From Pseudohongiella acticola (GTDB taxonomy: Bacteria > Pseudomonadota > Gammaproteobacteria > Pseudomonadales > Pseudohongiellaceae), in the NCBI RefSeq assembly GCF_001758195.1, contig NZ_MASR01000001.1, forward strand, positions 868,001 to 932,000: DNA of 64,000 nt, given 5' to 3'. Shown here in pieces: positions 6,830 to 22,929 of the stretch. Both the position numbers and the translations under genes were made by a program. The notes below the pieces were generated by a model, which worked only from the letters and a program-made list of their open reading frames with translations, ran no database searches and had not been told where the DNA came from. Every line of letters begins with the position of its first letter. Position 1 is the stretch's first letter.

Positions 6830-8428
6830 TCACTCAGACTTCCGGTGTTCCCGTGTCGCGCGGAAGCGCACATCAGGCCAGCGCTCTTCCATCAGCGCCA
6901 GGTTCACGCGCGTTGGTGGCAAGTAGGTCAGGTGATCGCCCCCATCAACGGCCAGATTTTCGTAGGCCTTCTTCTTGAACTCCTCAAATTTCTTCGCATC
7001 ATCACATTCCACCCAGCGCGCACTGTAGATGTTCACCGGTTCGTAAATGCAATCAACCTTGTACTCATCCTTCAGACGGTAGGCCACCACCTCAAACTGC
7101 AGCACACCCACCGCGCCCACAATCAGGTCATTATTGCGCTGCGGCATGAACACCTGCACCGAGCCCTCCTCCGACAGTTGCTTCAGGCCTTTCTGCAACT
7201 GCTTGGTTTTGAGCGGGTCTTTCAAGCGGATACGACGGAACAACTCCGGCGCAAAATGCGGGATGCCGGTAAACTGCAGGCTCTCACCCTCGGTAAAGGT
7301 ATCGCCGATCTGGATGGTGCCATGGTTATGGAAACCAATGATGTCACCCGACACCGCATTTTCAGCCTGCTCCCGCTCGCCCGCCATGAAGGTGACCGCA
7401 TCACTGATACGGACTTCCTTGCCCAGGCGGCAATGGTGCAGCTTCATGCCCTTGCTGTAGGCGCCCGAGCAGATGCGCAGAAAAGCAATACGGTCCCGGT
7501 GGTTCGGATCCATGTTGGCCTGTATCTTGAAAACAAAGGCAGAAAATGGCGCTTCCTTGGGCGTCACCGTGCGGCTTTCAGTCTCGCGCGCTCGCGGTTG
7601 CGGTGCCCATTTAACAAAGTCATTAAGCATCTCGCGCACACCAAAATTGCCCAGCGCTGTGCCAAAAAACACCGGTGTCATGCGGCCAGCCAGATACTCA
7701 CCCAGATCAAATTCATTGCTGGCGCCCCGCACCAGTTCGATTTCGTCGGCAAAGTCATCGGCATAGGCGCCCAGCAGTGCTTTTGCCTCGGCACTGCGCA
7801 ACCCCTGGATCTGCACGTCATCCGGAATACGCGTGCCCTGACCGTGGTGGTAAACATGAATGGTATCGGTGTACAGATTGTAGACACCCTTAAAACCTTT
7901 ACCGTTGCCCAGCGGCCAGTTGATCGGCGCACAACGGATATTCAGGACCGTTTCGATCTCGTCCAGCACTTCAATGGGCTCACGGGTATCCCGGTCCAGT
8001 TTGTTCACAAACGTGAAGATCGGCGTATCGCGCAAACGACAGACTTCCATCAGCTTGATGGTGCGGTCCTCAACACCCTTGGCGCCATCTACCACCATCA
8101 ACGCCGAGTCGACAGCGGTCAAAACCCGGTAAGTATCTTCCGAGAAATCCTCGTGACCGGGTGTATCCAGCAGATTGACGGTGGCGTCGTTGTACGGGAA
8201 CTGCATCACCGAAGAGGTGACCGAGATGCCACGCTGCTGCTCCATCGCCATCCAGTCAGAGGTTGCGTGTTTTTCGTTGCGCTTGCCCTTTACCGAGCCT
8301 GCCGACTGAATCAGCTTGCCGAACAGCAGCAGCTTCTCCGTGATCGTGGTTTTACCAGCGTCCGGGTGCGAAATGATGGCAAAGCACCTTCTTGTGCTTG
8401 TTTTTAAAGCAATTTCTTGGGGTGTCAT
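6830..8428 (-). CDS. prfC: Peptide chain release factor 3, with island-supplied N-terminus
   Basis: RF3 is a GTPase that recycles RF1/RF2 from the ribosome after termination. The 532 residues match the family. Seen are Walker [10 protein letters not shown] near residues 21-29, the switch [10 protein letters not shown] and the NKLD guanine-specificity motif FVNKLDRD, followed by EF-Tu-like domain II and the RF3 C-terminal domain. The first 20 or so codons ([15 protein letters not shown]...) differ from the native start preserved at 22.6-22.7 kb (MSTNLLAQEIATRRT...). An integrated island therefore supplied the start codon, leader and promoter. The gene remains in frame and should be functional. 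It precedes tgt on the same strand. Confidence 0.96.
8361..8384 (-). other. Left attachment site (inside prfC)
   Basis: Twenty-four bases matching 22634-22657 at 23 positions; they encode FAIISHPD of RF3. The element-side sequence is to the right of this repeat. The strict identity of the 11 bases TCCGGGTGCGA at one end and ATGATGGCAAAG at the other brackets the strand-exchange zone. Confidence 0.85.
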
Positions 8429-8445
8429 TAGCGGCTTCTTCGGAT

Positions 8446-8470
8446 TATGTACACAACTATGTACACACTA
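8446..8470. repeat. TGTACAC inverted pair, left end of island
   Basis: ATGTACACAACTATGTACACA lies just inside the left attachment site. The same type of pair, with the shared string ATTATGTACAC, recurs just inside the right end (about 22483-22506). Such short repeats at both ends of an integrating element are typical of integrase arm-binding or excisionase sites. That role is inferred. Confidence 0.55.
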
Positions 8471-8509
8471 TGAAATGTGTCCCGGCTCTGGGCTGTGACT
8501 CAATAACGC

Positions 8510-8540
8510 AGTATACCAAATCTTAGCCAGCGGGCACCAA
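8510..8540 (-). promoter_or_regulatory. Candidate island-borne promoter for prfC
   Basis: On the minus strand TATACT (8515-8510) is preceded by TGG, forming an extended -10 (TGGTATACT). A weak -35 (TTGGTG) lies 19 bases further upstream. It is about 80 bases before the new prfC ATG and is the best match in the island-supplied leader. Since the native prfC promoter is now 14 kb away, some promoter here is required. Confidence 0.5.
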
Positions 8541-8595
8541 CCGCAAATCTCCCACAACTCTACTACCTCCACCTTTATACCAAGGAGCCTTACCC

Positions 8596-8670
8596 ATGCC
8601 CGACAAACCCAAAGTACTCATCCTCGGTCACGGCCGGCACGGTAAAGACACCGTGGCTGAGATCATTTGA
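8596..8670 (+). pseudogene. Truncated start of a phage-type dNMP kinase-like gene
   Basis: A strong ribosome site (AAGGAG, 8 bases before the ATG) leads into 24 codons, MPDKPKVLILGHGRHGKDTV..., followed by TGA. The peptide holds a P-loop, GHGRHGKDT. It closely resembles the beginning of phage and plasmid deoxynucleoside monophosphate kinase-like P-loop proteins, but the rest of the domain is missing. It is most likely the leftover 5' end of a gene lost by deletion. A functional 24-residue peptide is less likely. Confidence 0.6.
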
Positions 8671-8710
8671 TTTGGGTCCCATGGGTCCCGCCAACGGAAC
8701 AGCTCCCGAT

Positions 8711-8880
8711 ACCGATATACAACCATGTTAAACATAAAACCGATACACACCCGATACTCTGAGAACTGAGCAAAGACGAGATCCAGCTTCAGAGGCGGCT
8801 TGCCGAAATGGTTACTCACGATCAACCGATATACTAAGTCCGCTAAAAGCGCTGAAAATGGCGGTATACGACCGATATAC
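8711..8880. repeat. Iteron-like cluster of ACCGATATAC repeats
   Basis: ACCGATATAC occurs exactly at 8711-8720, 8825-8834 and 8871-8880. Relatives occur at 8739-8748 (ACCGATACAC) and 8750-8759 (CCCGATACTC), and a partial inverse (GCGGTATACG) just before the last copy. The 425-base stretch 8671-9095 has no credible gene. It could be binding sites for an island regulator or a replication/transfer initiator. The spacing is irregular, so a regulator array is as likely as true iterons. Confidence 0.6.
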
Positions 8881-9095
8881 TATCCAGACACAGGGATTCA
8901 ACCGAAAGCTGCCAGAATATTTGGCCCCCAGGGGAAGTCAGTCGCATTTTTGAAAAATTTGCTCATCTGCCTACGGTGGCAATACTACATACCCCTGGAT
9001 TCAGATAAAGAAGTACCCCCCCCCCCTCTTCTCCGCCTACGGCGTTACAACGATGGCAGCATAAACCGACTGCTGCACTACTCCGGAGACAGACC

Positions 9096-9305
9096 ATGAA
9101 CAACACAGCCTCAATTGGTACCGTATGGGATCGCCTCATGTCAGTGGCTGACAACTCCCTCAGCATGGCTGACAACCTGGCACAAGCTGGTGGCCACATC
9201 ACCGCTGCTGCCCGCATCCACGCTCACAACGTCGAGGTCGGTGCCCAGATTAAGGTCAACATCCGAGCTCAAGAGCTGCGCCTTTCTCTCCCTCCAGTTG
9301 AATGA
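9096..9305 (+). CDS. Small hypothetical protein with its own terminator
   Basis: This 69-residue frame begins MNNTASIGTVWDRLMSVADN and is preceded by GGAG about 9 bases before the ATG. It is followed five bases after its stop by a strong intrinsic terminator, so it looks like a real one-gene transcript. The sequence is alanine-rich and predicted helical, with no membrane span, cysteine or recognisable motif. I do not recognise the family. Confidence 0.6.
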   Translation: MNNTASIGTVWDRLMSVADNSLSMADNLAQAGGHITAAARIHAHNVEVGAQIKVNIRAQELRLSLPPVE

Positions 9306-9310
9306 TCAAC

Positions 9311-9345
9311 ACCACCATATCCTTCGGGATGTGGTGGTATTTTTT
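9311..9345 (+). terminator. Intrinsic terminator
   Basis: ACCACCATATCC and GGGATGTGGTGGT form a 12-pair stem closed by a TTC loop and followed by ATTTTTT. It ends the small gene at 9096-9305. Confidence 0.9.
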
Positions 9346-9480
9346 ACACCCTACACACTTATTCGTTAGTCAGTTATCAAGATAGACCACCATCTGTTGC
9401 CGCCCCCCCCTGAGGACTAGAGCTTCGCTCTTACGATGAAGCCAGAAAGGCTTAATCACTTAATAACCTCAGGAGCCAAC

Positions 9481-9975
9481 ATGAGCAAGACCAACGATCT
9501 GTTCCCAATCACTATCAAATCCGAATACACGTTAACGGCGCATCAACATGCGGCAATCAGAGAAGCCGTTGGCATCCTGGAGACAAGCTTCAAGCGCAGC
9601 GAAGCCATGACTAACTCGGATCTGGTCAAACAGTTCTGCCAGCTGCAGATTGCCACCAAGATGGATGAACACTTCGGGTGCATGTTCCTAGATAATCAAC
9701 ATCGGCTGATCTCATACGAGACTATGTTCAACGGCACCATTGATGGCGCTGCAGTCTATCCCAGAGTCGTTGTACGACGCGCACTGGAGATCAACGCAGC
9801 GGCAGTCATCTTCACCCACAATCATCCTTCTGGCTTGCCTGAGCCTAGCCAGGCAGATATTGCTATCACCAAGCGCCTCAAGGACTCGCTGGCCCTGATT
9901 GATATCCGGGTGCTGGATCACATCATCGTCGGCTGCGAAGGCACCGTATCCATGTCAGAGCGCGGCATACTGTGA
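9481..9975 (+). CDS. RadC-like JAB-domain protein (island type)
   Basis: The 164-residue protein carries the JAB/MPN metalloprotease-like signature in RadC form: E80 (LISYETMFNG), H113 and H115 in FTHNHPSG, S123 and D126 (SQAD). The ATG at 9481 is preferred because AGGAG lies six bases upstream; a longer frame from 9436 lacks a good site. This short class (YeeS/YkfG-like) lacks the N-terminal helix-hairpin-helix of chromosomal RadC and is common on prophages and integrative islands. Its biochemical role is not settled; involvement in DNA processing is only presumed. The next ORF starts 62 bases downstream and may share its transcript. Confidence 0.9.
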   Translation: MSKTNDLFPITIKSEYTLTAHQHAAIREAVGILETSFKRSEAMTNSDLVKQFCQLQIATKMDEHFGCMFLDNQHRLISYETMFNGTIDGAAVYPRVVVRRALEINAAAVIFTHNHPSGLPEPSQADIAITKRLKDSLALIDIRVLDHIIVGCEGTVSMSERGIL

Positions 9976-10037
9976 AGCAAATATAGAACCACTGGCTGAA
10001 TAGTGGATAGAACCCATTTCAAATCCGAGAAGAACCA

Positions 10038-10364
10038 ATGGTAAAACTACTACCAATGATCGACTTCCAAGTTTCAGTAGGACGATCCATGCATATGAGA
10101 ATGGATATATCTCCCTTCTGCGAGAACCTCTATGAATGCTCGTGTGGGCAACAACACGTGCTCAAGTCATATAGCCGAATTCTGTATCAAGGATTTTACC
10201 GGATCGTTATCGAGTGTCCCGATGACCCAGCTTACCTAACGTGCGTCAAGATCAGGATGATTCTGATGGCCAAGTTTATTGGCTTAACCAGTATTAGCGG
10301 GACAAAAGTAAGTACGGATACTGACAAGTTTCTACTCGCAAACTTGATGAAAATATTACGGTAA
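10038..10364 (+). CDS. Hypothetical island protein with a CxC motif
   Basis: The protein has 108 residues, starting MVKLLPMIDFQVSVGRSMHM. A small cluster FCENLYECSCGQQH contains three cysteines and a histidine and could bind a metal. The rest looks like a compact alpha/beta fold with hydrophobic strands. A purine-rich GAGAAG precedes the ATG by about six bases, and an intrinsic terminator follows the stop. Family not recognised. Location after the RadC-like gene suggests the two are transcribed together. Confidence 0.6.
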   Translation: MVKLLPMIDFQVSVGRSMHMRMDISPFCENLYECSCGQQHVLKSYSRILYQGFYRIVIECPDDPAYLTCVKIRMILMAKFIGLTSISGTKVSTDTDKFLLANLMKILR

Positions 10365-10381
10365 TCTAATTCACCCCCTAC

Positions 10382-10430
10382 CAACTCTGACTATACTGCC
10401 ATTCGCAGTGTAGCCAGAGTTGCTTTTTTC
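10382..10430 (+). terminator. Intrinsic terminator
   Basis: CAACTCTG at 10382 pairs with CAGAGTTG, with an inner stem ACTGC/GCAGT, and is followed by CTTTTTTCC. It ends the RadC-like / CxC-protein unit and separates it from the convergent KAP gene. Confidence 0.85.
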
Positions 10431-10530
10431 CTCGGCCCCGTACTTTAGATTGCAGAGCAGTCACTAGTGACACTGCGATACGTCATAGATCCAGTGGTAC
10501 TAATTCGGGTTGAGGTCATCGGCTGTAGGG

Positions 10531-11934
10531 TCAGCTCTCCTCTTCACGCTGCGGAAAGCTGAACTGTGACGTCAACTCGACTCTCTTTAATATCTCATTC
10601 AATGGAACAATATGGCCATGCCCTCTATGTTGACGAATCACCTCAAACACGGTCTGCGCATATTCATGATTTTCCACGGACTCGTTATCATTTTCAATAA
10701 TCTCCTTGTATTGAACGTCGTAGTCACGATCAAGCTCATCTCGAGATTTAGAGGCAATCAAGTATCCCTCTACTACGGCCATATAGAACTTAGCATCACG
10801 TTTTTTAGGAGCGATGCTGTGGATATAATCGATTGAATCCCCCAGTGTGTGGCCCTCCTTGACTAAGCCAGAGTATAAGACAGGATTTTTCTGCCGGAGT
10901 ACTATCAAAAATACCACTAGTGACGAGAAAGTGAACTTATTAGCAGGTGTGGAGTGGAGCGCCAAACTGATTCGTGATAAATACTGCTCGATATCACGCA
11001 GAGTGAAACCATACTCACCGCATAGCCACAGAAACGTACCTTTGAAATGGTCCTTCTCATACTTAAAGAGGCTGTTTTTATTTTTTTGCTCAAAAAAGAA
11101 ACCCAACCCTAAGGACGAAATCAGTTGCCCTATATATGTCTCCGGGCTCGGATTCGGGAGAGTGTACTCAAGATCGATGAATCTACGCAAATAGCCAGCA
11201 GCATCGATTTCACCATAGACCGCGCCAATCGAGTGGCATAGTTGCTCTTTATCCAGAGATAGGACAAAAACAATTCCTGGCTGGTCGAATAAATGCTTAA
11301 TCCGTTCCAGTAACTCGATTGCGTATGTGGGTCTACAACGATCCAGCTCATCCACGAAAATAACCAGCGGGGTGTCTTTCGTTGCCACCTCAAGTGTGTC
11401 AGATAAGTGTTTTTTGAACTCATCGATGGCTGACTTCGTTGATTCGTACGCCTCCACAGCCTCAGATGCAGTGCCGCCCAATAGCCCCATGGCTTCTTCT
11501 CTGCCTATTTCGTTTCCATCAAGCACTCCAGCGGTAACCAGGCGAACAACTGTAGGCAAGCTGCGTCTCGCAATGACTCCGCCAATTTTTTTGCATCGCT
11601 CCCAAGCTTCATTGCGAACTCCAGACGCTGTTAAGTAGCTATCCAGACCAGTGTTCATTTCGCCCAGAAAAGCCACCAGCGGATCCTCAGAAAAATCGGT
11701 TGTCCAAGCATTAAAATTCAAAACGGGGAAACCTTCGAGCTCCAGGTACTTCGACCACATATCAACGAAAGTTGATTTACCAGACCCCCAGCGACCATTA
11801 ACTGCAAGCACCATCGGCGTATTCATATTGCGAAGCAGTAACGTGAGATTCTCAATCTCCTGTCTCCGCTCAAGCAGGTCACCCTCAAAGGGGGATTCAG
11901 GGTTGACCTGAAACTTTCTCGCCTTTAACTCCAT
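10531..11934 (-). CDS. KAP-family P-loop NTPase
   Basis: The 467 residues start at the ATG at 11934 (MELKARKFQV), which has GAGG seven bases upstream; a TTG start nine codons earlier is possible. Walker A is GRWGSGKS at residues 47-54. Walker B is VIFVDELDRCRP, with the DELDR signature of KAP NTPases, followed by IELLERIKHLF and FVLSLDKEQL. Classic KAP proteins have membrane spans inserted in the NTPase domain. Here that insert (about residues 100-165) is only weakly hydrophobic, so the protein is probably cytosolic. KAP NTPases such as PifA are linked to phage exclusion. The neighbouring restriction system supports a defence role, which is inference. Confidence 0.88.
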   Translation of the reverse strand: MELKARKFQVNPESPFEGDLLERRQEIENLTLLLRNMNTPMVLAVNGRWGSGKSTFVDMWSKYLELEGFPVLNFNAWTTDFSEDPLVAFLGEMNTGLDSYLTASGVRNEAWERCKKIGGVIARRSLPTVVRLVTAGVLDGNEIGREEAMGLLGGTASEAVEAYESTKSAIDEFKKHLSDTLEVATKDTPLVIFVDELDRCRPTYAIELLERIKHLFDQPGIVFVLSLDKEQLCHSIGAVYGEIDAAGYLRRFIDLEYTLPNPSPETYIGQLISSLGLGFFFEQKNKNSLFKYEKDHFKGTFLWLCGEYGFTLRDIEQYLSRISLALHSTPANKFTFSSLVVFLIVLRQKNPVLYSGLVKEGHTLGDSIDYIHSIAPKKRDAKFYMAVVEGYLIASKSRDELDRDYDVQYKEIIENDNESVENHEYAQTVFEVIRQHRGHGHIVPLNEILKRVELTSQFSFPQREEES

Positions 11935-11999
11935 TTGGGACCTCGTCAATGCTTGTACCAATTTAGCCTATACCCAATCAGCAGACATACGGCAACATT

Positions 12000-12713
12000 C
12001 TACAGCCAAGCCTCAGCACCCAGCGGCAACTCATTCAACTCAGCCCTGGCCTCTCTCCACCCCGGACAATGCTGATTCAACAGTGCAACAAACCTTTCAC
12101 TGTGTGTCGGCTCAATCAAATGAACCATTTCATGAACCAGCACATACTCCACCAGATCCTTCGGTTTTTTTACCAGCTCAGTGTTAAGCCTGATGTTCCT
12201 GGCTTGGGCAGTACAGCTACCCCACTTGGTTTTCATACGCTGCAGATAATAAGCGTTTACCTTTACATTCAGCTTGGCTTCCCACTTCTGGATCAGTGGT
12301 GGAATCAAGTCATGCAGCAGTTTTCTGTGCCAGGCATACATGATTTCGGCGCGTTTGATCGCTTCGGTTCCTGGGCGAACACTGAGGATTATTTTTTTTG
12401 GCTGCAGTAAAACACTGGGCTTGGCATCCTTGTGTTTAACCTCCAGCACATACCTGCGCCCCCAGACATAGTGACTTTCCCTGGAGATGAACTGCCGCGG
12501 TGTCTCACGAGCCTGGTCTTGCAGCTCTTGTCGGCGCTCACGTATCCAGCCCAGCTTTGATATCGCATAGGCACGGGCTACATCCAGCCGCGTATTTACT
12601 GGTGCTACCAAGGTGACATCGCCCTCAGGCGGGTGCACAGACAGGTGTACATTGCGCACCGCTTTACGGGTGATCCGGATAACGATGTCACCTAACGAAA
12701 TTGTCTCAGTCAC
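12000..12713 (-). CDS. YgjP-like (DUF45/WLM) metallopeptidase
   Basis: The 237-residue protein has the zinc motif VHEMVH followed by LIEPTHSERF (HExxH with a later histidine), as in the YgjP/SprT-like DUF45 family. WGSCTAQARNIRLN and the closing VALLNQHCPGWREARAELN are also typical of that family. It starts with GTG inside the hsdR stop (TAGTG), so it is translationally coupled to the restriction subunit. Such peptidase genes frequently follow hsdR in type I systems. Whether it trims restriction subunits, as ClpXP does in EcoKI alleviation, or has another role is not known. Confidence 0.9.
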   Translation of the reverse strand: MTETISLGDIVIRITRKAVRNVHLSVHPPEGDVTLVAPVNTRLDVARAYAISKLGWIRERRQELQDQARETPRQFISRESHYVWGRRYVLEVKHKDAKPSVLLQPKKIILSVRPGTEAIKRAEIMYAWHRKLLHDLIPPLIQKWEAKLNVKVNAYYLQRMKTKWGSCTAQARNIRLNTELVKKPKDLVEYVLVHEMVHLIEPTHSERFVALLNQHCPGWREARAELNELPLGAEAWL

Positions 12714-15700
12714 TAGTACCCTGCCTGATTCTTGATCAACTCAAATACTGCTTCAGTTGCCGCGCGATCACGGGCCAGAATTGGGAATAGCGCATTGAGC
12801 ACTACTCGCTCACGGGCAGTATCCCCACGCCAGCCTGCCGGCGCTTGCTCGCGCATGGCTTGATCAATCTGCAGCGTGACATCCAACCGGCGCTGCTCTT
12901 CACTGACTTCACCAGGGGCGGTGTCGCGCAGCTCATAAGACGGACGTAGCGGCTGCAGTATGTCAGAGAGATTATTGTAGATGACCACTGCTTCTTTTTT
13001 ACCTGCCAGTTCCGGTGGCGCGCCTTCTAAACCCAAGCCACTAGCCATCTGATGAACCAGTGACTCCACTCGCTCCAGGAACTCCTTGTATGAGACAGCT
13101 TCGGTGCGCCAATCCCTGATAATGTCATCCAGCAACAATGACAGCTGCTTATAGAATCGCGGATCATTGAGCTGATCACGGATGATGGTCTTGCGTACAT
13201 TGTTGATGATGCCTTCAGCAACTGCCTTGTTGGACAGCTTGCCCTTATCATTCAGCTTTTGGGCTATTGCATTATGGACACCGGTTTCAACTATCAACTG
13301 GATCAGGGAGTAGTTGTCTACTGACCCAAGTTTGTTTGCTGGATCCGCCTGAATGTAGGTGTTGATCAGGTGGCGCATGTCGGCTTCGTACGGCTTGATG
13401 TCCAGCTCCTCACCTGAGTAGTGTTTAACAGCATTTCTAAGGTCACTGTAGAACGTAACGTCCTGGCTCAGTGCATCAATCGCACTGCTCGTATATCCTG
13501 CTTCCTGCAAATTTTGCTGTATGGCTGAATAAGCTCGAATAAAGGACGCTGTTGCCTTGTAGAACGATACTCGAAGCGCCTCAGTGTCATCCAAACCCCC
13601 GGCTGTCAGTCCATTCCCACAGAAGTAGTGCAGGTACTGTTCGATATCACGGGGATGCGGCACTGGTTCACATAGATAGCTGAGGGCTTCACGGGCTTCA
13701 TCGAGTTTATGGCGACCTTCTTTAAGCCAGTCCTTCAATTCAACATTGTTCTCTGCGTTACTGCCACCCTCAAGGTCCAGTTCATCAGAGCTGTACACCG
13801 CAATAGCCTGTTGAACATCACCAAAGAGGTGCTTGAAGTCCACGATATGGCCGTACTCTTTGTCAGTGCCGTCCAGGCGGTTGGTTCGGCAAATGGCCTG
13901 AAACAGGTTGTGGTCCCTCAGCTCATTGTCCAGATAGATATAACTGCAGGACGGAGCATCGAATCCAGTGAGCAGTTTACTGACCACAATTAACAACTTC
14001 AGATTGGCGGGCTCTTCAATAAAGCGCCGCTTCATCTCATCTTCGTATTGTTTGACGCTCTTCCAGTCTCTAAGCACATGATCATTGTAGGTGTCATACT
14101 TGTAGCGCTCATCGCTGTCAGGTGACTCCCGTGATATGGCGTTATGATTGGGCTCGAATGAGGTAATGATGCCGCAATACCTGCCAAATGAGGTGTGCTG
14201 CAGTAGTCTGAAGTAGTGGCAGGCATCATAGATGGAGGCTGCCACCAGTATGGCCGTACCACGGTTACTGCTTAATCGCGGTTTCATGCTGAAGTCTTTG
14301 ATGATGTCGGCAATGATGCGCTGTTTGCGCTCAGCTGAACTCATCAACTCTTCCAGCTTCGCCCAGCGCCTGCGCAGTACCGCCTTCTGGTAATTGTTCA
14401 GATTACGGGTCTTCTGCTCAAACCAGTCATCAATATCCTGCTGCGATGTCAGCCGCTGAGGAATATCCCTGGCCTCGTATTTCAAGTCCAGTACCACACC
14501 ATCAGCCACAGCCTGCGGGAACTTGTAGGTATGGATGTAGGTGCCGAACACCTCACGGGTTGTCTGTTTATCTTTTCGCAGCAGTGGTGTACCGGTGAAA
14601 CCAATAAAGATGGCATCAGAGAGCCAGCGCTTCATTTGGCGGTTCATATTGCCACCCTGGGTCCGGTGACATTCGTCCACGAACACATAGAAGCGACCTT
14701 TGATGGCCGGTGGTTCATCATCAAAGTCTGACGGGTCAAATTTATGGATCAGTGCACACAGCAGCCTTGGTATGGTATCGGTGAGCTTATCGACAAAGTC
14801 TGCCCGTGACGTTATGTGCGGCGAGGGCCCCTCATCAGGCACCACACCGGCATTACGCATAACCCCGACGATCTGCTTGTCCAACTCATCGCGATCAGTC
14901 ACGATCATCACACGGGCTTGTGGGTCGCTTTCCAGCAGCCATTTAGCCAACAACACCATCAAGATGCTTTTGCCACTACCCTGCGTGTGCCAAATAACAC
15001 CACCTTCACGCTCGGCAACCCGTTCCTGGGCGGCCTTGATCCCGACATACTGGTGCTGGCGGGGAACCTTCTTCTGGCCAGCATCAAAGATCACGAAGTT
15101 ACGCATCAGATCGAGCAAGCGATCTTTACTGCACATCTGCGTCAACGGGCGATCCAATAGTGAACCAGACGTCAGCTCACCTGTATTGGCTTCATCTTTC
15201 CACTGTATATAGAATTGCTCAGGCGTCCCTGTCGTGCCGTAGCGCAGGCCCTGAGAGTCACTGCCGGCCAACAGCAGCTGGGATGTGCCGAAGAACGGCT
15301 GGTTAAACTCAGCTTCCTGATTGGTAATGAGCTGGCGCACTCCATCTGCCACTTCCACTGAGCTGCGTTTTAGCTCGATAACCACAACAGCCAAGCCGTT
15401 TATGTATAACACCAGGTCAGGACGGCGGTCATGCCCGCCTCTTAGGGTGACCTCTTCAGCCAGTGCAAAATCATTGGCTTCGATTTTATCCCAGTCGATT
15501 AGATGGACGGTCTCATGTGCCCGTCCTATAGCTACCTGCACCGGTACGCCGTAACGCATCAATTGATAGGTCCGCATATTCGCTTGATACAGGGTTATCC
15601 CGGTGACATCTGCCGCCTGCTCCAGCTTTTGCAGCGCAGCGGAGATATGCGCATCGGAATAACCCCTTTCGCGTAGATTTGAGCGCAACAAATCAGGCTC

Positions 15701-15835
15701 AATGGCTCGGTTGCCATCACGTTTACTCCACTCCCCCAAATAGCGGTATTGCAAACTGTCGGGGCGATCAGGATTAGTAAACAGGTCGACTACCCTCTTC
15801 TGGGTTTGCCGTTCCGGGCGTATAGCTGCGCTCAT
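12713..15835 (-). CDS. hsdR: Type I restriction enzyme, R subunit
   Basis: The 1040-residue motor and nuclease subunit of a type I restriction-modification complex. The N-terminal PD-(D/E)xK nuclease shows D140 ([11 protein letters not shown]) and E154/K156 (VVIELKRS). The superfamily 2 translocase has Walker A HTQGSGKS, the DEAD-type motif [11 protein letters not shown], motif [13 protein letters not shown] and motif [15 protein letters not shown]-terminal helical domain follows. It is separated from hsdS by 139 bases and overlaps the YgjP-like gene downstream. The frame is intact, so restriction is expected to be active. Confidence 0.97.
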
Positions 15836-15974
15836 GGTCTATCCCTTTTTATTAGAGGTTTATCGTTCGCCGTCCATTGCTTGCTATGAATCTAATTCTC
15901 GTATGGAAGTGCTTATTGCCCGGATTATGCTCTTGTAACTATTATTCTGATCCAGATAAACATCGCCCTTTTGC

Positions 15975-17183
15975 TCATATCAGCCGAGTCCTTCCTGTGA
16001 GTAGCTCCTGCATCATTGCTTGTTTAAGATCGCGAGTTTTATGGCGACGATGCTCGAGGGCGGCGATTTCGGCATCCATGTCGGATAGGACGGTAGCGAT
16101 GGCGGTTTGTTCTTCTTTGAATGGTGGCAGCTTAAGCTCAAATGATTGGAATGTTGGAAGTCGCAAGGAGTCGACAGTCGCCTTAACCGTATTTTGCATA
16201 GCCCACGCCCCAAAGTTCATTGCCATATACAGGTGTACGAACTTGGCTGATATGTTCGGACTAAACTGGGTAATCGCATAAACACGCTGATGCACATCAA
16301 ATCGACCGTTAATGTAATGGAATATGTCCCCGATTCTCCCTTCTCCAGGCACAAGTATTGCCTCGCAATCGTGTGAATAGCTGTTTATTCGTTCGACAAA
16401 ATCCGAGCGCACGAAAAATGGATAATCTCCATCCTGCACTTTGTCTTCGTTGTTACGACTACCAGTTTTGATATGAGCGATGTCAGCCAACCGCTTCAGC
16501 TCCCACTCTCCCTCAAACCCTGGCAAACGAGTCTGACCAGTGAGCAGTTGTTGCATGGCAGCCTGTTTGAGGTCACACTTCTTGGCGATCAGACTATCCA
16601 ATTTTTCTAACAGAGCATCAACGTCTATCAGAGCGGCGCCGATGGCGTGTTGTTCAGGCTCCGGAGGAACTGCGCATGGCATTGAATTAAGGGAAGCCTT
16701 ATTTAATTTATATCTCCCCGCGCCCTGACGCGAGAGGTAAGGTGATATGTCCCGGTTCCTAAAATAGAGGTAAAACCATCTTGCTGTCCCAATTTTGCCT
16801 TTTACTAGGTGAGCATGATTATTGACATTGAACTTACCCGTCACATATTGCGTTTGCGGTTTGTTTTCAAAATCAAGGAAATGGTCACCGTCCTCACCGA
16901 TTAATGCGTATTCACCTTCAACTCGGTACTCACTTAAATAATCCTGTATTTTAGTCGGCCCGTAGTAAGGATATTCACCCAGCATACCTTTCCTTACTTT
17001 TGCACTGAGCGGAAGCCGCAGGTTATTGCATATATCGAAGGCGTCACCAATCAAAAACACATCCCAATCTGCCGGAATAACCCCCACCTCAGTCTGCTTG
17101 TACCCCAGAGGCTCTTCCGACTTCTTCACCCTCGTTCCATTCTCCGTCGACAGATTTTGCGTGCCCATTGCTTCGCTCCTCAT
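15975..17183 (-). CDS. hsdS: Type I restriction-modification specificity subunit
   Basis: The 402-residue protein selects the DNA target for both methylation and cleavage. Two target recognition domains are evident, each followed by a similar helical repeat: LKQAAMQQLLTGQTRLPGF around residues 205-225 and LKQAMMQELLTGRTRLI at the C-terminus. This is the usual two-fold arrangement of HsdS and shows the gene is full length. Its start overlaps the hsdM stop by four bases (ATGA). The recognition sequence cannot be read from the protein alone. Confidence 0.96.
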   Translation of the reverse strand: MRSEAMGTQNLSTENGTRVKKSEEPLGYKQTEVGVIPADWDVFLIGDAFDICNNLRLPLSAKVRKGMLGEYPYYGPTKIQDYLSEYRVEGEYALIGEDGDHFLDFENKPQTQYVTGKFNVNNHAHLVKGKIGTARWFYLYFRNRDISPYLSRQGAGRYKLNKASLNSMPCAVPPEPEQHAIGAALIDVDALLEKLDSLIAKKCDLKQAAMQQLLTGQTRLPGFEGEWELKRLADIAHIKTGSRNNEDKVQDGDYPFFVRSDFVERINSYSHDCEAILVPGEGRIGDIFHYINGRFDVHQRVYAITQFSPNISAKFVHLYMAMNFGAWAMQNTVKATVDSLRLPTFQSFELKLPPFKEEQTAIATVLSDMDAEIAALEHRRHKTRDLKQAMMQELLTGRTRLI

Positions 17184-19612
17184 GCAGAGCTTACTCCCAT
17201 CTTTTTCAGGTGCTCATCCACCCGAGCAGACAGCTCGGAGACTTCATCCACTAGCTGCGGCAGCGGTGTGGCATAACGCTCAGCCAATTGCCGAATACGG
17301 CCAGTTAGAGTTTGTGAAACGCGATCCAGCTCACCCTGCACTGCAGTGGCAATGGCGGCAAGCCATTTGTCCTCTACCACCAGCGTTTTGATCTCCTCTA
17401 CACTGAGCTTGGCGTATTGGTCATGAGCCAGTCGGTCAAGTTCAGCATCAGCTGTTTTGATCTGGCTTTTCAGATCGCTCTGCTGTTGATCCAGCTTGAT
17501 CCACTGCTTAAGTATTTTGGCTTCATAAACGTAACCAGCATCGCCCTTTATCTCCTTCAGGCGCTTGTTGATTTCCCCCTTGTTAATCTTGTCTAGTTCT
17601 GCAAATGCACCCTCTTCACCACCGTGTTCTTCTTCCAGCTCGGTCTGTTGAGCTATGGCAGATTCAAGTTCGGCTTGCAGAGCATCCAGTTCGGCTTGTT
17701 GTTTTGCGAAGTAGCACGCGACAATATAGGGCTTTGGAATCAAATCGCAGTCCCAGCCTTTATCTTTCAGTCCACCCTTCTTACTACCTGCTTTAATTTC
17801 TTCCAGCACGCGCTGAGGTTTGGCTTCCCAGCCATCCGCGGCAATCAGGTAGGCATCGTCTTGCAGAACCTCAGCCCAGTAATCCATAAGATGCTGGTAC
17901 ATATCGTAGGCATCTAACAGTGGTGCGCTGCGGAACGCATCGAGCAGGTTTTCGCCGACCGCGGTGATCAGCTCCTTGGGCAAACCATCTATGTCAAAGG
18001 CCTTCAGGTACGGCACATTGGTAGCGCGCCATTTATCGAAGCTGCCTGTTACGGCTGCCTTGAACTTGGCAAATTCCGTATGACTCAGAATGGCCGATTT
18101 AACCTCGGCAATTGGCACGCGCAGCTGGCTATAACCCTCTCGACCGGCATCCACGAACAAGGCAGATCGCACGCCTGGCATGATCTGCCAGTATGCGCTC
18201 AGGGCGTTGAGATCGGGATCCGGAATACCCCCGCGCAAGTGACCATCGATGTCCTGGATGTCTTCTGGCTCAGCGCTGTCGATGTACCTAGGGAGGTTCA
18301 GGTTGTAATCGTTTTTCGTGTCAGCTATTTCGTCGATGGGCACCATGCGCGCATAGAGAGGTACCTCCTGTTGTTTTTTGAAGGTATCAACAATGCGGTG
18401 GATGTCCTGCTCACGCAGTCGGTTTTTGTTGCCATCCTTTATGAAACCCTTGGCTGCATCAATCATGTAAATGCCTTTACGGGCTTGAGCATTCTCTTTG
18501 TCTAAAACCAGAATACAGGCGGGGATACCAGTACCGTAAAACAGATTTGCTGGCAGGCCGATGATCCCTTTCAGAAAACCAGAACGAACAAGCTGCTTAC
18601 GGATTACCCCTTCTGCATTACCACGGAACAGAACACCATGAGGAAGGATCACCGCTCCCTTGCCAGTGCTTTTGATGGACCGTAACACATGCAGAAGGTA
18701 AGCATAGTCACCTTGCTTATCTGGTGGGGCACCCCAGCTGAAACGTTGGTACTGATCAGTTGCGGGTGTAATGCCGGTACTCCATGCTTTATCGGAAAAT
18801 GGTGGATTGGCCACGACATAATCGTAGGTACGCAGCTGCTCCCCATCTTTGAATTTCGGATTGGACAGCGTATCTCCCTGCTGAATATTTGCCGTTGGGA
18901 AGTTATGCAGGATCATGTTCATCCGCGCCAAACCAGCAGTGGTGACATCCTTCTCCTGGCCTTCCAGAGTGATATGCTTGCCTGCCTCGCCCGCAACCTT
19001 CAGAAGCAGTGAGCCAGAGCCACAAGTGGGGTCATACGCGGTTGTCGAGGCCACGGCTGCGTTCGAGGAGACACCAATGACCTGAGCCAGTACCCTGCTC
19101 ACTTCCGAGGGTGTATAAAATTGCCCTTTGCTTTTGCCGCTCTCAGTCGCAAAGTGCCGCATCAGATATTCGTAGGCATCCCCTAGGATGTCGTCATGTT
19201 CAGCGCGGTTCTTGGCGAAGTCCAACTCCGGTTTTTGGAAGATGCTGATCAGATTGGTCAGCCGATCCACCATGGCTCTACCTTCACCCAATTTGTTTGG
19301 GTCATTGAAGTCCGGGAAATCACTGCGGGCCAGTCGCTGATTGGCTTCAATCAAGGGCTGGATAATTTGTGTATTGATCTTGTCGCCTATGTCAGACTTG
19401 CCTTTTAGCTGGATCATGTCCTTAAAGCCAGCACCCGGAGGGATCGCGACCGGTGGCGCAAAGTCATCTGAGTCAGAGTACTTGTCCGAGATGTACTTGA
19501 TGAACAGCATGAACAGGACGTAGTCCTTGTACTGGCTTGCATCCATTCCGCCGCGTAGCGCATCACATGAAGCCCAGAGGGAGGAGTAAAGTTCCGATTT
19601 CTTGATGGCCAT
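17180..19612 (-). CDS. hsdM: Type I restriction-modification methyltransferase, long form
   Basis: N6-adenine methyltransferase subunit. From the ATG at 19612 (MAIKKSELYSSLWASCDALR, the usual HsdM beginning) it has 810 residues; a TTG 11 codons upstream is an alternative. The HsdM_N domain is followed by SAM motif I AYDPTCGSGSLLLKV and catalytic motif VVANPPFSDKAW. At 810 residues it is much longer than the roughly 500-residue EcoKI type. The extra C-terminal region, about residues 600-810, includes a charged coiled coil (QQAELDALQAELESAIAQQ onward) and a second helical stretch. Such long HsdM forms exist in other type I systems. It is first in the hsdM-hsdS-hsdR-peptidase run. Confidence 0.95.
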   Translation of the reverse strand: MAIKKSELYSSLWASCDALRGGMDASQYKDYVLFMLFIKYISDKYSDSDDFAPPVAIPPGAGFKDMIQLKGKSDIGDKINTQIIQPLIEANQRLARSDFPDFNDPNKLGEGRAMVDRLTNLISIFQKPELDFAKNRAEHDDILGDAYEYLMRHFATESGKSKGQFYTPSEVSRVLAQVIGVSSNAAVASTTAYDPTCGSGSLLLKVAGEAGKHITLEGQEKDVTTAGLARMNMILHNFPTANIQQGDTLSNPKFKDGEQLRTYDYVVANPPFSDKAWSTGITPATDQYQRFSWGAPPDKQGDYAYLLHVLRSIKSTGKGAVILPHGVLFRGNAEGVIRKQLVRSGFLKGIIGLPANLFYGTGIPACILVLDKENAQARKGIYMIDAAKGFIKDGNKNRLREQDIHRIVDTFKKQQEVPLYARMVPIDEIADTKNDYNLNLPRYIDSAEPEDIQDIDGHLRGGIPDPDLNALSAYWQIMPGVRSALFVDAGREGYSQLRVPIAEVKSAILSHTEFAKFKAAVTGSFDKWRATNVPYLKAFDIDGLPKELITAVGENLLDAFRSAPLLDAYDMYQHLMDYWAEVLQDDAYLIAADGWEAKPQRVLEEIKAGSKKGGLKDKGWDCDLIPKPYIVACYFAKQQAELDALQAELESAIAQQTELEEEHGGEEGAFAELDKINKGEINKRLKEIKGDAGYVYEAKILKQWIKLDQQQSDLKSQIKTADAELDRLAHDQYAKLSVEEIKTLVVEDKWLAAIATAVQGELDRVSQTLTGRIRQLAERYATPLPQLVDEVSELSARVDEHLKKMGVSSA

Positions 19613-19836
19613 CGGGTTGTATTTGTCCTTATTGGTTTGGTTCAAGGCACTGATACTACCCTAATTCAGTATCAATCATGAAGGGTAAGCTCACACTGGG
19701 TTTCAGATGGACCTTGAGGCGTGGTCACCTCTCCAACGCAAATACCAAAAAGCGGAACTCGCTACCGAAGTACGCTGATCTCATGCAGCTTCCAGCCCAC
19801 CCAGAACCCCCAATATTATTCCTGACATTCCCCCAC

Positions 19837-20013
19837 CCTAAGCCATGGTAAGCACAAGGAGGGCGACCCGCGCAGCGGGAGAGCACGAACGAAGTGGTGT
19901 ACATGGCTTAGGCTGGTATGGTTAATTTCCACTGGCTTCACCTGACAGCCTTCCGTGCTCACTGCGCTTTGCCTGCGGCACGCTTGTGGCACTCGTCTGT
20001 TGGCGGTGAAGCC
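19837..20013. repeat. Two tandem imperfect palindromes upstream of hsdM
   Basis: CCTAAGCCATG at 19837-19847 is the exact reverse complement of 19902-19912, with an inner CCGC/GCGG hairpin between. A second pair, GGCTTCACC at 19934-19942 and GGTGAAGCC at 20005-20013, encloses a further GC-rich stretch. Both lie in the 633-base gap between hsdM and the winged-helix gene, in which no gene is seen. They could form an RNA leader or mark a past insertion; function unknown. Confidence 0.6.
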
Positions 20014-20094
20014 TGGACTGAGGGTAGGTAGTAAGAATCACAGTGGGATACCAGATGGGGCCTCCGTCCCCTTTGTGAAAAATATCACCAGTTT

Positions 20095-20245
20095 ACTTAT
20101 AGATTTATATACGAGGGTATAGTTCATATAATTCATATAGATACGAACAATAAATGCAACTGAAATGTTGTCACTTTTTAATTTAAACAACTAATATGTT
20201 GTACTATAAAGTACACTCCTTAAAAGATTAAGGGCACTGAGAACC
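20095..20245. promoter_or_regulatory. AT-rich divergent control region
   Basis: This stretch is far more AT-rich than its surroundings. It holds short inverted repeats including ACAAC-taatat-GTTGT (20187-20202) and GTAC-tataaa-GTAC (20201-20214), directly before the winged-helix gene. TATAAA and several TATA-like strings could serve promoters in both directions (hsdM leftward, winged-helix gene rightward). A likely site of autoregulation by the winged-helix protein; inferred. Confidence 0.45.
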
Positions 20246-20737
20246 ATGACGAAATCAAATGTACAACCCCCGCTCCACCCTCAGGGCAACGGGCCTATTA
20301 CTCAATCCGCTGACCACACTGGCAAACAGATTCTAGTTCCGGCAAACAGCGACATTTACATCAAAGCCAGATATAAGGAGAACTTCGGGAGTTTCCAAGC
20401 CATCAGCCCATTACGCACATCTGAAACTAGCGGACCAGATATATTCGATCTTCTGGCTTCAGTTTCTCACTCATCATTCAAGGTATTCAACAAACTCAAG
20501 GCTAAGAGGAACGAGAAAAATTCTCTGTGCCACTACCGCACCGATAAACTTTCCAAATCAGAACGAGAGATGTTCAACCGTGGCGTCAGGCAGCTTGTGG
20601 GTAAAAATATTATTAAGCGTGTACCAGTAAGCAGCGAAGTCACAAATGTAAGAAAGAACACATACATGATTAATCCTGTGATCATCAAGTGTTGGGAATA
20701 TGAGGAGGCCTGCAGCGTCTGGATGCAGCTGGACTAG
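20246..20737 (+). CDS. Putative winged-helix DNA-binding protein
   Basis: The protein has 163 residues. The N-terminal 70 look unstructured and polar. The C-terminal half reads like a winged-helix domain: a helix (SSFKVFNKLKAK), TDKLSKSEREMFNRGVRQLVGKNIIKRV, which resembles the helix pair before the wing, and the wing-like SSEVTNVRKNTYMINPVII. The KNTYMINP ending resembles plasmid replication (RepL-like) or island control proteins. It faces away from the restriction operon behind an AT-rich region with inverted repeats, so it may repress itself or time hsd expression. Family assignment is tentative. Confidence 0.6.
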   Translation: MTKSNVQPPLHPQGNGPITQSADHTGKQILVPANSDIYIKARYKENFGSFQAISPLRTSETSGPDIFDLLASVSHSSFKVFNKLKAKRNEKNSLCHYRTDKLSKSEREMFNRGVRQLVGKNIIKRVPVSSEVTNVRKNTYMINPVIIKCWEYEEACSVWMQLD

Positions 20738-20877
20738 GGCATTCTCAGGGCACCAGCCTTAATAAATATCTGTAGATCTACATTCCGAACACCACCTTTC
20801 CTCAGTGCGATAGATTGAACCAATAGTTATCTGATCCTTTCTATCATACCAGCGCAGTACCGCTGAGCACCCACCAG

Positions 20878-21231
20878 TTGCATGTACTGCGCCAGACATT
20901 GCCCATCATCGACACCAGGCAGATCCAGTTACTCACTGGCTTAGGCACCCGCCAGGCCCAGCATAACCTCAAAGCAGCCAAGTTCTTGCTGCCCTACCTG
21001 GATCGACACTTTGAGAGTAAAAACACCATGACTATCTCAGCCGGATATTGGGACACCAAATCCATCACCCAACGCTTCTGCATCTCAAGCCGTACCCTGT
21101 TCCGCTGGATGGAGCGGGAGAACAATCCATTCCCAGCACCGTGTATGCAAGCAGCCGGAAGTGCTAACCGGTGGCGCATCGAAGATGTACTGGCCTGGGA
21201 AGCCAGCGAGATGGACACTCAGGCAGCTTGA
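20878..21231 (+). CDS. AlpA-like excisionase/regulator with an extra N-terminal helix domain
   Basis: The frame is 117 codons from a TTG at 20878. It stays open upstream to 20827 but has no ATG there. An internal ATG at 21028 would give a 67-residue protein, MTISAGYWDTKSITQRFCIS..., which by itself matches AlpA-type helix-turn-helix proteins: WDTKSITQRFCISSRTLFRW, then NRWRIEDVLAWEA. The upstream part, IIDTRQIQLLTGLGTRQAQ..., looks like a second helix-turn-helix. Either this is a two-domain protein whose start was damaged, or two coding segments are fused. It ends 13 bases inside the convergent integrase gene, the usual place for a recombination directionality factor. Confidence 0.65.
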   Translation: MHVLRQTLPIIDTRQIQLLTGLGTRQAQHNLKAAKFLLPYLDRHFESKNTMTISAGYWDTKSITQRFCISSRTLFRWMERENNPFPAPCMQAAGSANRWRIEDVLAWEASEMDTQAA

Positions 21232-22433
21232 CCCACAATCCCCGTCAACCGCTCCCACCACTTATCATACGCATCCCTTTGCTCACCCAAGTAATCATGC
21301 AAGTCATAGGTCTGCCACTCACCAGGCATCTTGTGACCCAGCATGGTTTCAGCAATATGCGGTGGAGCCAGTGTTGAGAAGTTTGTGCGGGCGGTACGCC
21401 TCAGATCGTGCATCGACCAGTGAGCCATCTCAACACCCTTGTGCCGGCGTAGCCACTGCATCAGGTTGTATGGCAACTGGAGGGGTACACCGCGGCTCAT
21501 GGGCTCATCTGAGCCAGCATTATTGAACAGGTGAGCACCTTTGGCGCTGAGCGCGAAAGCCTCCTCCAGCAGCCCCTGGGCGCCTGGAAAGATTGGCCGC
21601 TTCAGTGCCTTACCCGTCTTGGTACCTATTTTATGGTTCTCAGGCGGGATCAGCCAAACCTGCGCATCGAAATCAAAGTGAGCTTTCTTAGCCAGTCGCA
21701 TCTCCCCGCTACGGCAGCCGTAGACAAGGCACAGCTTCACGAACACCTTGTTCTTGGGACTCATACGGGATCTGTCTATGGCTTCCCACACCAGCGCGAT
21801 ATCGGCATCAGCCAGCGTGCGGGTGGATGTCCTCTTTTTAATGTTCAGATCCGTTGCGCCAACGATATTCGCCAGCGGATTATCGCTCACCAGCTCCCTG
21901 CGTATGGCCCATTTGTACATCTGCTTGGTGTTCACCAGAACCCGGGCAGCAATGGCCTCAGAGTGGTCCACAAGACCTTCCAGCAGATCAAGCCACTCAT
22001 GGATCGTGATCTGGTGTGCAGGCAGCTTACCTAATCGCGGTAGCACATGTATCTGGAAGGTTCGCTGGATCAACTCCGGGGCTTTTTTTGTGACTACACA
22101 GTATCCCTTATACCAGCGCTCAAACAGATCCTCCAACGTCAGCGCCGAGACGATCTTCTGCTTCTCAACGGCCACCACCACCTTGGGATCATGCCCCTGC
22201 TCCAGCTTCGCCTTGAGCCGGGCATGCTCATCGCGGGCAGCCTTCAGCGACACATGGGGATAACTCCCCAGATCGAGCCTCTTGGCTTTACCGTCATACC
22301 GGTAGCGCATCTGATAGACGATCTTGCCCAGTGGGCTGACACGCACGCTCAATCCACCGCGGTCAGTCTTGACCTCAATCTGCTCACGAGCCTTGCCCGC
22401 ATTGGCTTTAAGCCAGGTGTCTGTCAGGGCCAT
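21219..22433 (-). CDS. int: Tyrosine recombinase (island integrase)
   Basis: The 404-residue integrase has an N-terminal arm-binding domain of the DUF4102 type (GGLSVRVSPLG, RLDLGSYPHVSLKAARDE), a core-binding domain, and the catalytic set R241 (CRSGEMR), H342-R345 (HDLRR), H367 (LGHK) and Y376 (TYDLHDYL). GGAG lies eight bases before the ATG. It sits at the right end of the island, about 200 bases from the right attachment site, reading inward. It is predicted to catalyse insertion at the prfC 5' end. Confidence 0.95.
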   Translation of the reverse strand: MALTDTWLKANAGKAREQIEVKTDRGGLSVRVSPLGKIVYQMRYRYDGKAKRLDLGSYPHVSLKAARDEHARLKAKLEQGHDPKVVVAVEKQKIVSALTLEDLFERWYKGYCVVTKKAPELIQRTFQIHVLPRLGKLPAHQITIHEWLDLLEGLVDHSEAIAARVLVNTKQMYKWAIRRELVSDNPLANIVGATDLNIKKRTSTRTLADADIALVWEAIDRSRMSPKNKVFVKLCLVYGCRSGEMRLAKKAHFDFDAQVWLIPPENHKIGTKTGKALKRPIFPGAQGLLEEAFALSAKGAHLFNNAGSDEPMSRGVPLQLPYNLMQWLRRHKGVEMAHWSMHDLRRTARTNFSTLAPPHIAETMLGHKMPGEWQTYDLHDYLGEQRDAYDKWWERLTGIVGQAA

Positions 22434-22482
22434 GGGCCACTCCTGTGTACATGCAATTTGATGTCATCGCCGCCAGCCCGAA

Positions 22483-22506
22483 TTATGTACACCGTTGTGT
22501 ACACAA
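22483..22506. repeat. TGTACAC inverted pair, right end of island
   Basis: ATTATGTACACCGTTGTGTACACAA mirrors the pair just inside the left end, and a further GTGTACAT lies at 22445-22452. Position between the integrase start and the attachment site suits integrase arm sites or control of the integrase promoter. Inferred. Confidence 0.55.
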
Positions 22507-22584
22507 TAGGGGTGGCTCGAGGTGTCTTAGTATGTCGCAGGTTGCCCAGGGCAGGAAAGCAGAATCTCAGGAATTTCGTGGGTT

Positions 22585-22701
22585 CTAGCAGATTTTTGTC
22601 TGGGGCTGTCCGAGGTTGACTTTGAGGCAAACATCCGGGTGCGAGATGATGGCAAAGGTGCGACGCGTCGCAATTTCCTGCGCAAGTAGATTGGTAGACA
22701 T
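22585..22701 (-). pseudogene. prfC: Displaced native 5' end of prfC
   Basis: From the ATG at 22701 the minus strand reads MSTNLLAQEIATRRTFAIIS then HPD, the standard beginning of RF3. It then passes into unrelated island sequence and stops at a TAG after 38 codons. The P-loop (DAGKTT) that should follow HPD is found instead in the functional prfC at 8.3 kb. This is the clearest proof of where the island inserted. The native prfC promoter probably lies in 22702-22875. Confidence 0.93.
22634..22657 (-). other. Right attachment site
   Basis: Twenty-four bases matching 8361-8384 except for one base (G for A at the eleventh position). Sequence to the right is the original chromosome; sequence to the left is island. 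Confidence 0.85.
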
Positions 22702-22929
22702 TGAGTTAAAATCTTGTGGTTGCAGCCGTAATCGGCCGGCCGGAGGCCAAAACCGTTATTTTCGCCGATGTCTGCCCGACACACAATGACCAGGCTGACA
22801 TTAGCGGCAAGATCACGACTGTGATACCCTTGCGCGCCTCAAATTGACGATCCGGGCACAACCATAGTTGAATGGGTGCTTCCGATGCGTTCATTCACTG
22901 CCTACACCTTTTATGCAAGGACCACGCTC

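Follow-up and report, generated by a model that had tools for sequence, protein, structure and literature searches.

A probable defence island with an SXT-related integrase that re-supplies the RF3 start in prfC of Pseudohongiella acticola

An IntSXT subgroup of integrases has been defined, and SXT, related integrative and conjugative elements (ICEs) and the cdt1 phage have been placed at the gene prfC, according to the accessible part of PMC8138268. Prophages at prfC are known from Escherichia coli, as stated in the available portion of PMC10132054. Three other integrases are 99% identical to Int-SXT, and the attachment sites of element and chromosome (attP and attB) are nearly identical, as an excerpt of PMC2791158 reports; in contrast, the part of PMC5991714 at hand states that SXT/R391 elements do not integrate into attP-like sequences, and adds that no arm-type sites were identifiable in Tn6283, another element. 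Here, we describe a 64,000-nucleotide stretch of P. acticola DNA (the window), in which an island of 14,273 base pairs (bp), flanked by a 24-bp direct repeat, occupies the 5' end of prfC, the gene of release factor RF3. In all likelihood, the island is an integrative, non-conjugative defence element that inserted in prfC by means of an SXT-related integrase and re-supplies the RF3 start.

The interrupted prfC and its empty sites

The original prediction described a near-perfect 24-bp repeat around 14.3 kb, and the two copies, 14,273 bp apart, indeed agree at 23 of 24 positions (Table 1). In prfC orientation the repeat reads CTTTGCCATCAT(T/C)TCGCACCCGGA, giving the codons FAIISHP, which adjoin the RF3 P-loop. 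Both copies encode FAIISHPD in the RF3 frame, an agreement not accounted for by chance. The native RF3 start was predicted to persist as a 38-codon remnant, and an open reading frame (ORF) of that length, starting MSTNLLAQEIATRRT, does adjoin the right repeat. The working prfC, in turn, encodes a full 532-residue RF3 by domain content (RF3_C and GTPase domains). No tRNA that could be the target lies in the window.

Same-genus genomes provide the comparison. Among 14 of them, 11 have a readable prfC 5' end (L003-L013), and three yielded no full prfC (G004-G006); 10 of the 11 loci show neither an island end nor the pair of GTAC motifs, hereafter the doublet, that precedes prfC in the window. The closest relatives, G003, G013 and G011, have prfC genes 98, 97 and 96% identical to that of the window, with starts reading MSTHLLAQEVATRRT (G003) or MSTNLLAQEVATRRT, and the DNA upstream resembles, by eye, the window DNA beyond the remnant. 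As such, these three loci are empty sites. Their MSTNLLAQ-type start favours insertion; the MTPQEIAL start, whose presence in island-free relatives had been named as the refuting outcome, was not found there, and the N-terminus of the working prfC thus differs from theirs, as expected if its first residues are island-coded.

The eleventh of these genomes, G007, holds a second, broken island of the same family at the same site. Specifically, its prfC has a TTG start (MSSNNLSNQINKRRT) with a GTAC doublet upstream and a transposase gene pair nearby (Pfam), and another contig carries a native-type remnant, MAQDQLAREIATRRT, the same as in the island-free G009 (the two stretches are L238 on contig 6 and L041 on contig 4). 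Next to this remnant lie the initial 110 residues of an integrase with 60% identity to that of the window and one internal stop, after which the sequence runs, by eye, into insertion-sequence-like DNA. The prfC site has therefore probably been hit at least twice in the genus.

The best-supported model is that an SXT-related tyrosine recombinase joined attP to the RF3 codons (FAIISHPD) that immediately precede the P-loop. As the sequence shows, the original leader and 15 initial codons stayed behind in the remnant, and the island end provides a new leader, a start codon and 15 in-frame codons, which keeps RF3 intact except at its very N-terminus. An island promoter would drive transcription of prfC across the arm sites, and the convergent xis-like gene would direct excision. 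The supplied codons look to be under purifying selection rather than passive, because synonymous differences exceed amino-acid changes per site between related islands: pS/pN is 0.287/0.036 in Pseudomonas, 0.363/0.125 in Acinetobacter and 0.164/0 in SXT, as pairwise counts over 5, 8 and 3 distinct 15-codon sequences, which are small and non-independent samples.

Integrase relatives and GTAC doublets

Matches to the integrase at E 1e-60 or better occur in 10 of 390 genomes of the order, the window's own included. Five of the other nine have an RF3 remnant just before int (L032, L033, L036, L037, L038), two lie at lepA (L034, L035) and two are SXT-type, with an RF3 remnant beyond xis in L040 and no core in the stretch examined of L039. 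A wider genome-contig scan, in which 80 of 114 relatives were kept, gave 45 non-SXT and 35 SXT-type loci. The non-SXT loci comprise 33 with an RF3 remnant before int, which thus form a prfC-specific group at the same RF3 codons, 8 with a LepA start reading RNFSIIAHI, one cut by a contig end (L059) and three with neither; in the 33, the F codon of the remnant lies 223-244 bp before int. In 29 of the 35 SXT-type loci, an RF3 remnant continues into DAAQPFNA or a close variant of it. Related integrases thus sit mostly at prfC and in some cases at lepA. Two pairs of integrases are identical, L034/L073 and L035/L084, each joining a genome of the same order to a Halomonas or Marinomonas record. In a quick-method tree of 57 of the 94 integrases, made after 34 SXT-type and 3 partial rows had been dropped, the loci labelled prfC and lepA cluster; the tree does not fix the number of switches, several long branches meet in it, and the placement of the window is unsure. 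Three Shewanella loci (L079, L088, L089) carry integrases of the wider clade, and neither an RF3 nor a LepA start was found at them.

The shared layout extends to the GTAC motifs. Of the 33 genomes whose int adjoins an RF3 remnant, 30 were searched for prfC, and 28 yielded the gene. In 27 of these 28, two GTAC motifs stand 12 bp apart, and the first motif begins 78-81 bp upstream of the F codon of RF3; several of these genomes, from Pseudomonas and Acinetobacter, are closely related and do not count as independent. The genome of Paraglaciecola polaris has both integrase kinds (L061, L096), and its prfC (L154) has an SXT-type supplied start. In the order as a whole, where 110 prfC loci were read from 144 genomes (34 genomes unread; L227 only 144 bases), nine loci have the doublet at a spacing of 11-13 bp, the window and G007 included. 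At strict spacing, 8 loci have it at that place and none elsewhere in 190 bp, against 0.045 expected from base-shuffled sequence. LepA-type genomes show it before lepA in 8 of 8 cases, 76/77 and 64/65 bp before the N codon of NFSIIAH; the three loci at neither gene have a single GTAC. A 12-bp doublet also stands on the integrase side, in 33 of 38 chromosomal prfC-type loci and in 9 of 10 lepA-type rows, two of which have integrases identical to two others; its position is about +154/+166 (+175/+187 in Acinetobacter). SXT-type loci have it at +164/+176 in all 6 looked at of the 31 with a core. The window itself has sites at -81/-69 and +154/+166/+206 from the F codon.

These doublets are probably integrase arm-type sites, here placed inside the RF3 leader, since they flank the core on both sides at near-fixed distances and the integrase has an arm-binding domain. 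That they are instead operators of a transcription regulator, or Xis sites, is improbable to our mind. Doublets do stand in the leaders of both prfC and int, which would suit operators; their near-fixed distance to the core on both sides, across prfC, lepA and SXT-type elements, argues for arm sites, and Xis sites usually lie on one arm. The Xis of Gifsy-1, as the accessible part of PMC2603039 describes, binds three imperfect direct repeats in attP, a precedent for the Xis alternative.

With the doublet ending 21 and starting 36 bases upstream of the prfC start codon, the island might, as first proposed, control RF3, in that integrase or Xis at the leader sites, or excision, would alter the RF3 level. 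We regard this as doubtful. Integration of a dusA island significantly lowered expression of a dusA-lacZ fusion, according to the available text of PMC8409611, which itself reads the result as weaker signals and not as island control.

In 7 of the 38 chromosomal loci (L033, L037, L056, L057, L060, L071, L080) and in 1 of 31 SXT-type remnants, a doublet also precedes the remnant that adjoins the element; apart from this doublet, the remnants of L071 and L080 look like a native Acinetobacter start. Elements are therefore probably stacked in tandem at such loci. SXT and R391 in tandem at prfC are known from laboratory strains, as reported in the portion of PMC2786100 that was available.

Cargo and mobility

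A defensive role of the island is predicted from its cargo (Table 1): HsdR, HsdS, HsdM and PDC-S20 are all matched by PADLOC models, and the type I restriction system and KAP NTPase would defend the host against phages. An ORF at 10038-10364 had no match in the libraries tried. As was claimed, the scan of 11 island ORFs, which do not include all very small ones, revealed no conjugation gene; it also gave no phage structural gene and, in the library scans, no relaxase. The integrase combines an N-terminal arm domain (Arm-DNA-bind_3, PF13356, E 9.3e-20) with a phage integrase catalytic domain (PF00589, E 2.7e-9), the IntSXT-type architecture; Arm-DNA-bind_3 is, we take it, the former DUF4102, which agrees with the arm type originally proposed. 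R241, R345, H367 and Y376, presumably the catalytic residues, are invariant across six aligned integrases. The xis-like gene matches the Xis_Gifsy_1 model at 49.2 bits, below the cut-off of 60.

Table 1 Features of the island and the flanking prfC parts, in window positions
Feature	Position	Strand or sequence	Remark
prfC (RF3), 532 residues, first 15 codons island-supplied	6830..8428	-	RF3_C E 3.1e-47, GTP_EFTU E 4.4e-46
Left direct repeat (att core, within working prfC)	8361..8384	TCCGGGTGCGAAATGATGGCAAAG	23/24 identical to right repeat
Island-supplied first prfC codons (start MTPQEIAL)	8384..8428	-	absent from island-free relatives
GTAC doublet in prfC leader	8449..8464 (8449-8452, 8461-8464)		-69/-81 from F codon; likely integrase arm sites
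Extended -10-like hexamer TATACT, TGG before it	8510..8515	-	weak candidate island promoter of prfC; missed by sigma-70 scan
RadC-like JAB domain protein	9436..9975	+	E 2.2e-43
KAP family P-loop NTPase, candidate defence family PDC-S20	10531..11961	-	PDC-S20 E 2e-145
YgjP-like metallopeptidase, in restriction operon	12000..12713	-	E 6.8e-57
HsdR, type I restriction subunit	12713..15835	-	Pfam, NCBIfam, PADLOC models
HsdS, type I specificity subunit	15975..17183	-	domain and PADLOC models
HsdM, type I methylase subunit	17180..19645	-	Pfam, NCBIfam, PADLOC models
163-residue protein without family match	20246..20737	+	no Pfam, NCBIfam, PADLOC or PHROG match
Excisionase-like (Xis) gene, convergent with int	20878..21231	+	NCBIfam Xis_Gifsy_1 E 4.2e-13; PHROG excisionase families
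Tyrosine recombinase (integrase), 404 residues, with arm-binding domain	21219..22433	-	relatives at prfC or lepA
GTAC sites, integrase side	22447..22502 (22447-22450, 22487-22490, 22499-22502)		+206/+166/+154 from F codon
Native prfC start remnant, 38 codons	22589..22702	-	ATG at 22702, starts MSTNLLAQEIATRRT
Right direct repeat (att core, within remnant)	22634..22657	TCCGGGTGCGAGATGATGGCAAAG	23/24 identical to left repeat

Several points weigh against the reading of an integrative island that re-supplies the RF3 start. The support comes from sequence, and 1 of the 24 repeat bases is mismatched. Three relatives sit at neither prfC nor lepA; the survey leans towards prfC, lepA and SXT members, as these supplied its query. 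In addition, prfC went unmatched in 2 of the 30 genomes searched, one of the 28 prfC found (L157) has no doublet, and the doublet on the integrase side is missing in 5 of 38 prfC-type loci. A sigma-70 scan at both island ends gave no hits, and promoter claims are therefore kept weak. Of the earlier proposal that the insertion replaced both the N-terminus and the promoter of prfC, the new N-terminus stands, as does, by position, a new leader; the island promoter is a weak candidate, as the scan gave none at the prfC end, where the extended -10-like TATACT hexamer lies. When 38 island-type leaders were searched by hand for a fixed list of -10 hexamers, many, though not all, had one near -130 to -150; this search did not list that of the window, which was found separately.

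The repeat mismatch would also fit a fossil, an element once mobile and now fixed, whose supplied start is kept solely because RF3 needs it. No transfer gene is among the ORFs scanned, a circle cannot be seen from one assembly, and the related island of G007 has a broken integrase; against this, int and the xis-like gene both have open reading frames and the GTAC sites are in place on either side, and we therefore judge a fossil rather unlikely.

At six other prfC-type loci, 19 of 37 ORFs of at least 150 residues beyond int were compared with Pfam; the far island ends were not located, and some of the following genes may fall outside the islands. L047 and L054 carry restriction-type genes, L060, L063 and L067 encode RdgC (L067 also a cytosine methylase and a dATP/dGTP pyrophosphohydrolase), and L046 encodes an RTX-repeat protein.

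L059:151-4500 is a very short element, with about 3 kb from int to the next prfC and a 519-residue Fic-domain protein between. At the left end of the window island, a 24-codon ORF (8596-8670) directed away from prfC has a P-loop-like peptide and, to judge from its resemblance, may mark where a lost phage kinase gene began. The left island part also has runs of 11 and 8 C (9016-9026 and 9403-9410) near small ORFs without assigned function.

Comparison with known systems

Re-supply of a gene start is known from other mobile elements; the addition here, as the comparisons indicate, is a strict common layout across many bacteria, with GTAC doublets near-fixed on both sides of the core. Among the open-access matches listed, a scope that leaves out subscription papers such as Hochhut and Waldor 1999, no description of this layout was found, and no paper listed names both prfC and lepA. 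The layout common to prfC, lepA and SXT-type elements may thus be the part that a specialist finds new. Because the doublet is near-fixed before the RF3 or LepA codons, it offers a simple sequence signature, flagging 9 of 110 prfC in one order. The results suggest that a translation factor has repeatedly acquired a start of foreign origin on which selection itself acts, and they carry a warning for annotation, as the N-terminus of an RF3 may belong to a mobile element. More speculatively, and with low confidence, one integrase clade may have specialised on the conserved front of translational GTPases (RF3, LepA), with each element, whether phage, ICE or defence island, bringing a selected portable gene start with the arm sites of its integrase in the leader; RF3 or LepA could then be tuned through binding of integrase or Xis there, through excision and through tandem stacking. 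The layout makes a direct test possible: do mobile elements adjust the level of a release factor?

The closest comparison is with SXT/R391, whose group we take to be marked by an E. coli locus with umuC, mobI, a ParM gene, int and an AlpA-family gene. SXT-type loci use the same gene and end, as had been claimed, and likewise supply a new N-terminus and leader: among 11 host genomes, 9 supply MANQDFLNEINKRRT with a doublet upstream, one has another start without a doublet and one is unreadable. They also share the doublet on the element side and a related integrase. In contrast, the alignment with the SXT integrase that the original prediction called for gave 38% identity over 402 columns, far from a near-identical integrase; the SXT-type locus has mobI and a ParM gene, whereas the conserved conjugation core was not found among the 11 ORFs scanned in the 14.3-kb window island; and an AlpA-type gene lies between att and int in the former, whereas int lies between att and xis in the latter. 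A degenerate SXT/R391 element that had lost its conjugation genes would share target, re-supply and doublets on both sides; the differing gene order and the lack of a conjugation gene among the ORFs scanned speak against it, and the integrase identity leads us to reject this extremely improbable origin.

The SXT cluster of the IntSXT subgroup, comprising ICEs and the cdt1 phage, shares the DUF4102-kind N-terminal arm domain and the prfC target; the main text of PMC8138268 does not mention lepA, and its section on the subgroup, in the part available, has neither GTAC sites nor re-supplied starts. Islands specific to dusA likewise enter a translation-related gene at its 5' end, but they have another target and are described as an integrase family of its own, according to the accessible portions of PMC4482086 and PMC8409611. 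Escherichia phage Ayreon has an integrase 48.5% identical to that of the window and, beside int, MTSLLAAEVAKRRT-FAIISHP with a GTAC doublet at -79/-67, but it is a phage. Gifsy-1 is a phage, too, with an integrase 44% identical and an Xis whose model is the one that matches the island gene below its cut-off; it carries SIIAHIDN at its att end, as in LepA, and its target looks like lepA, presumably the Gifsy-1 site.

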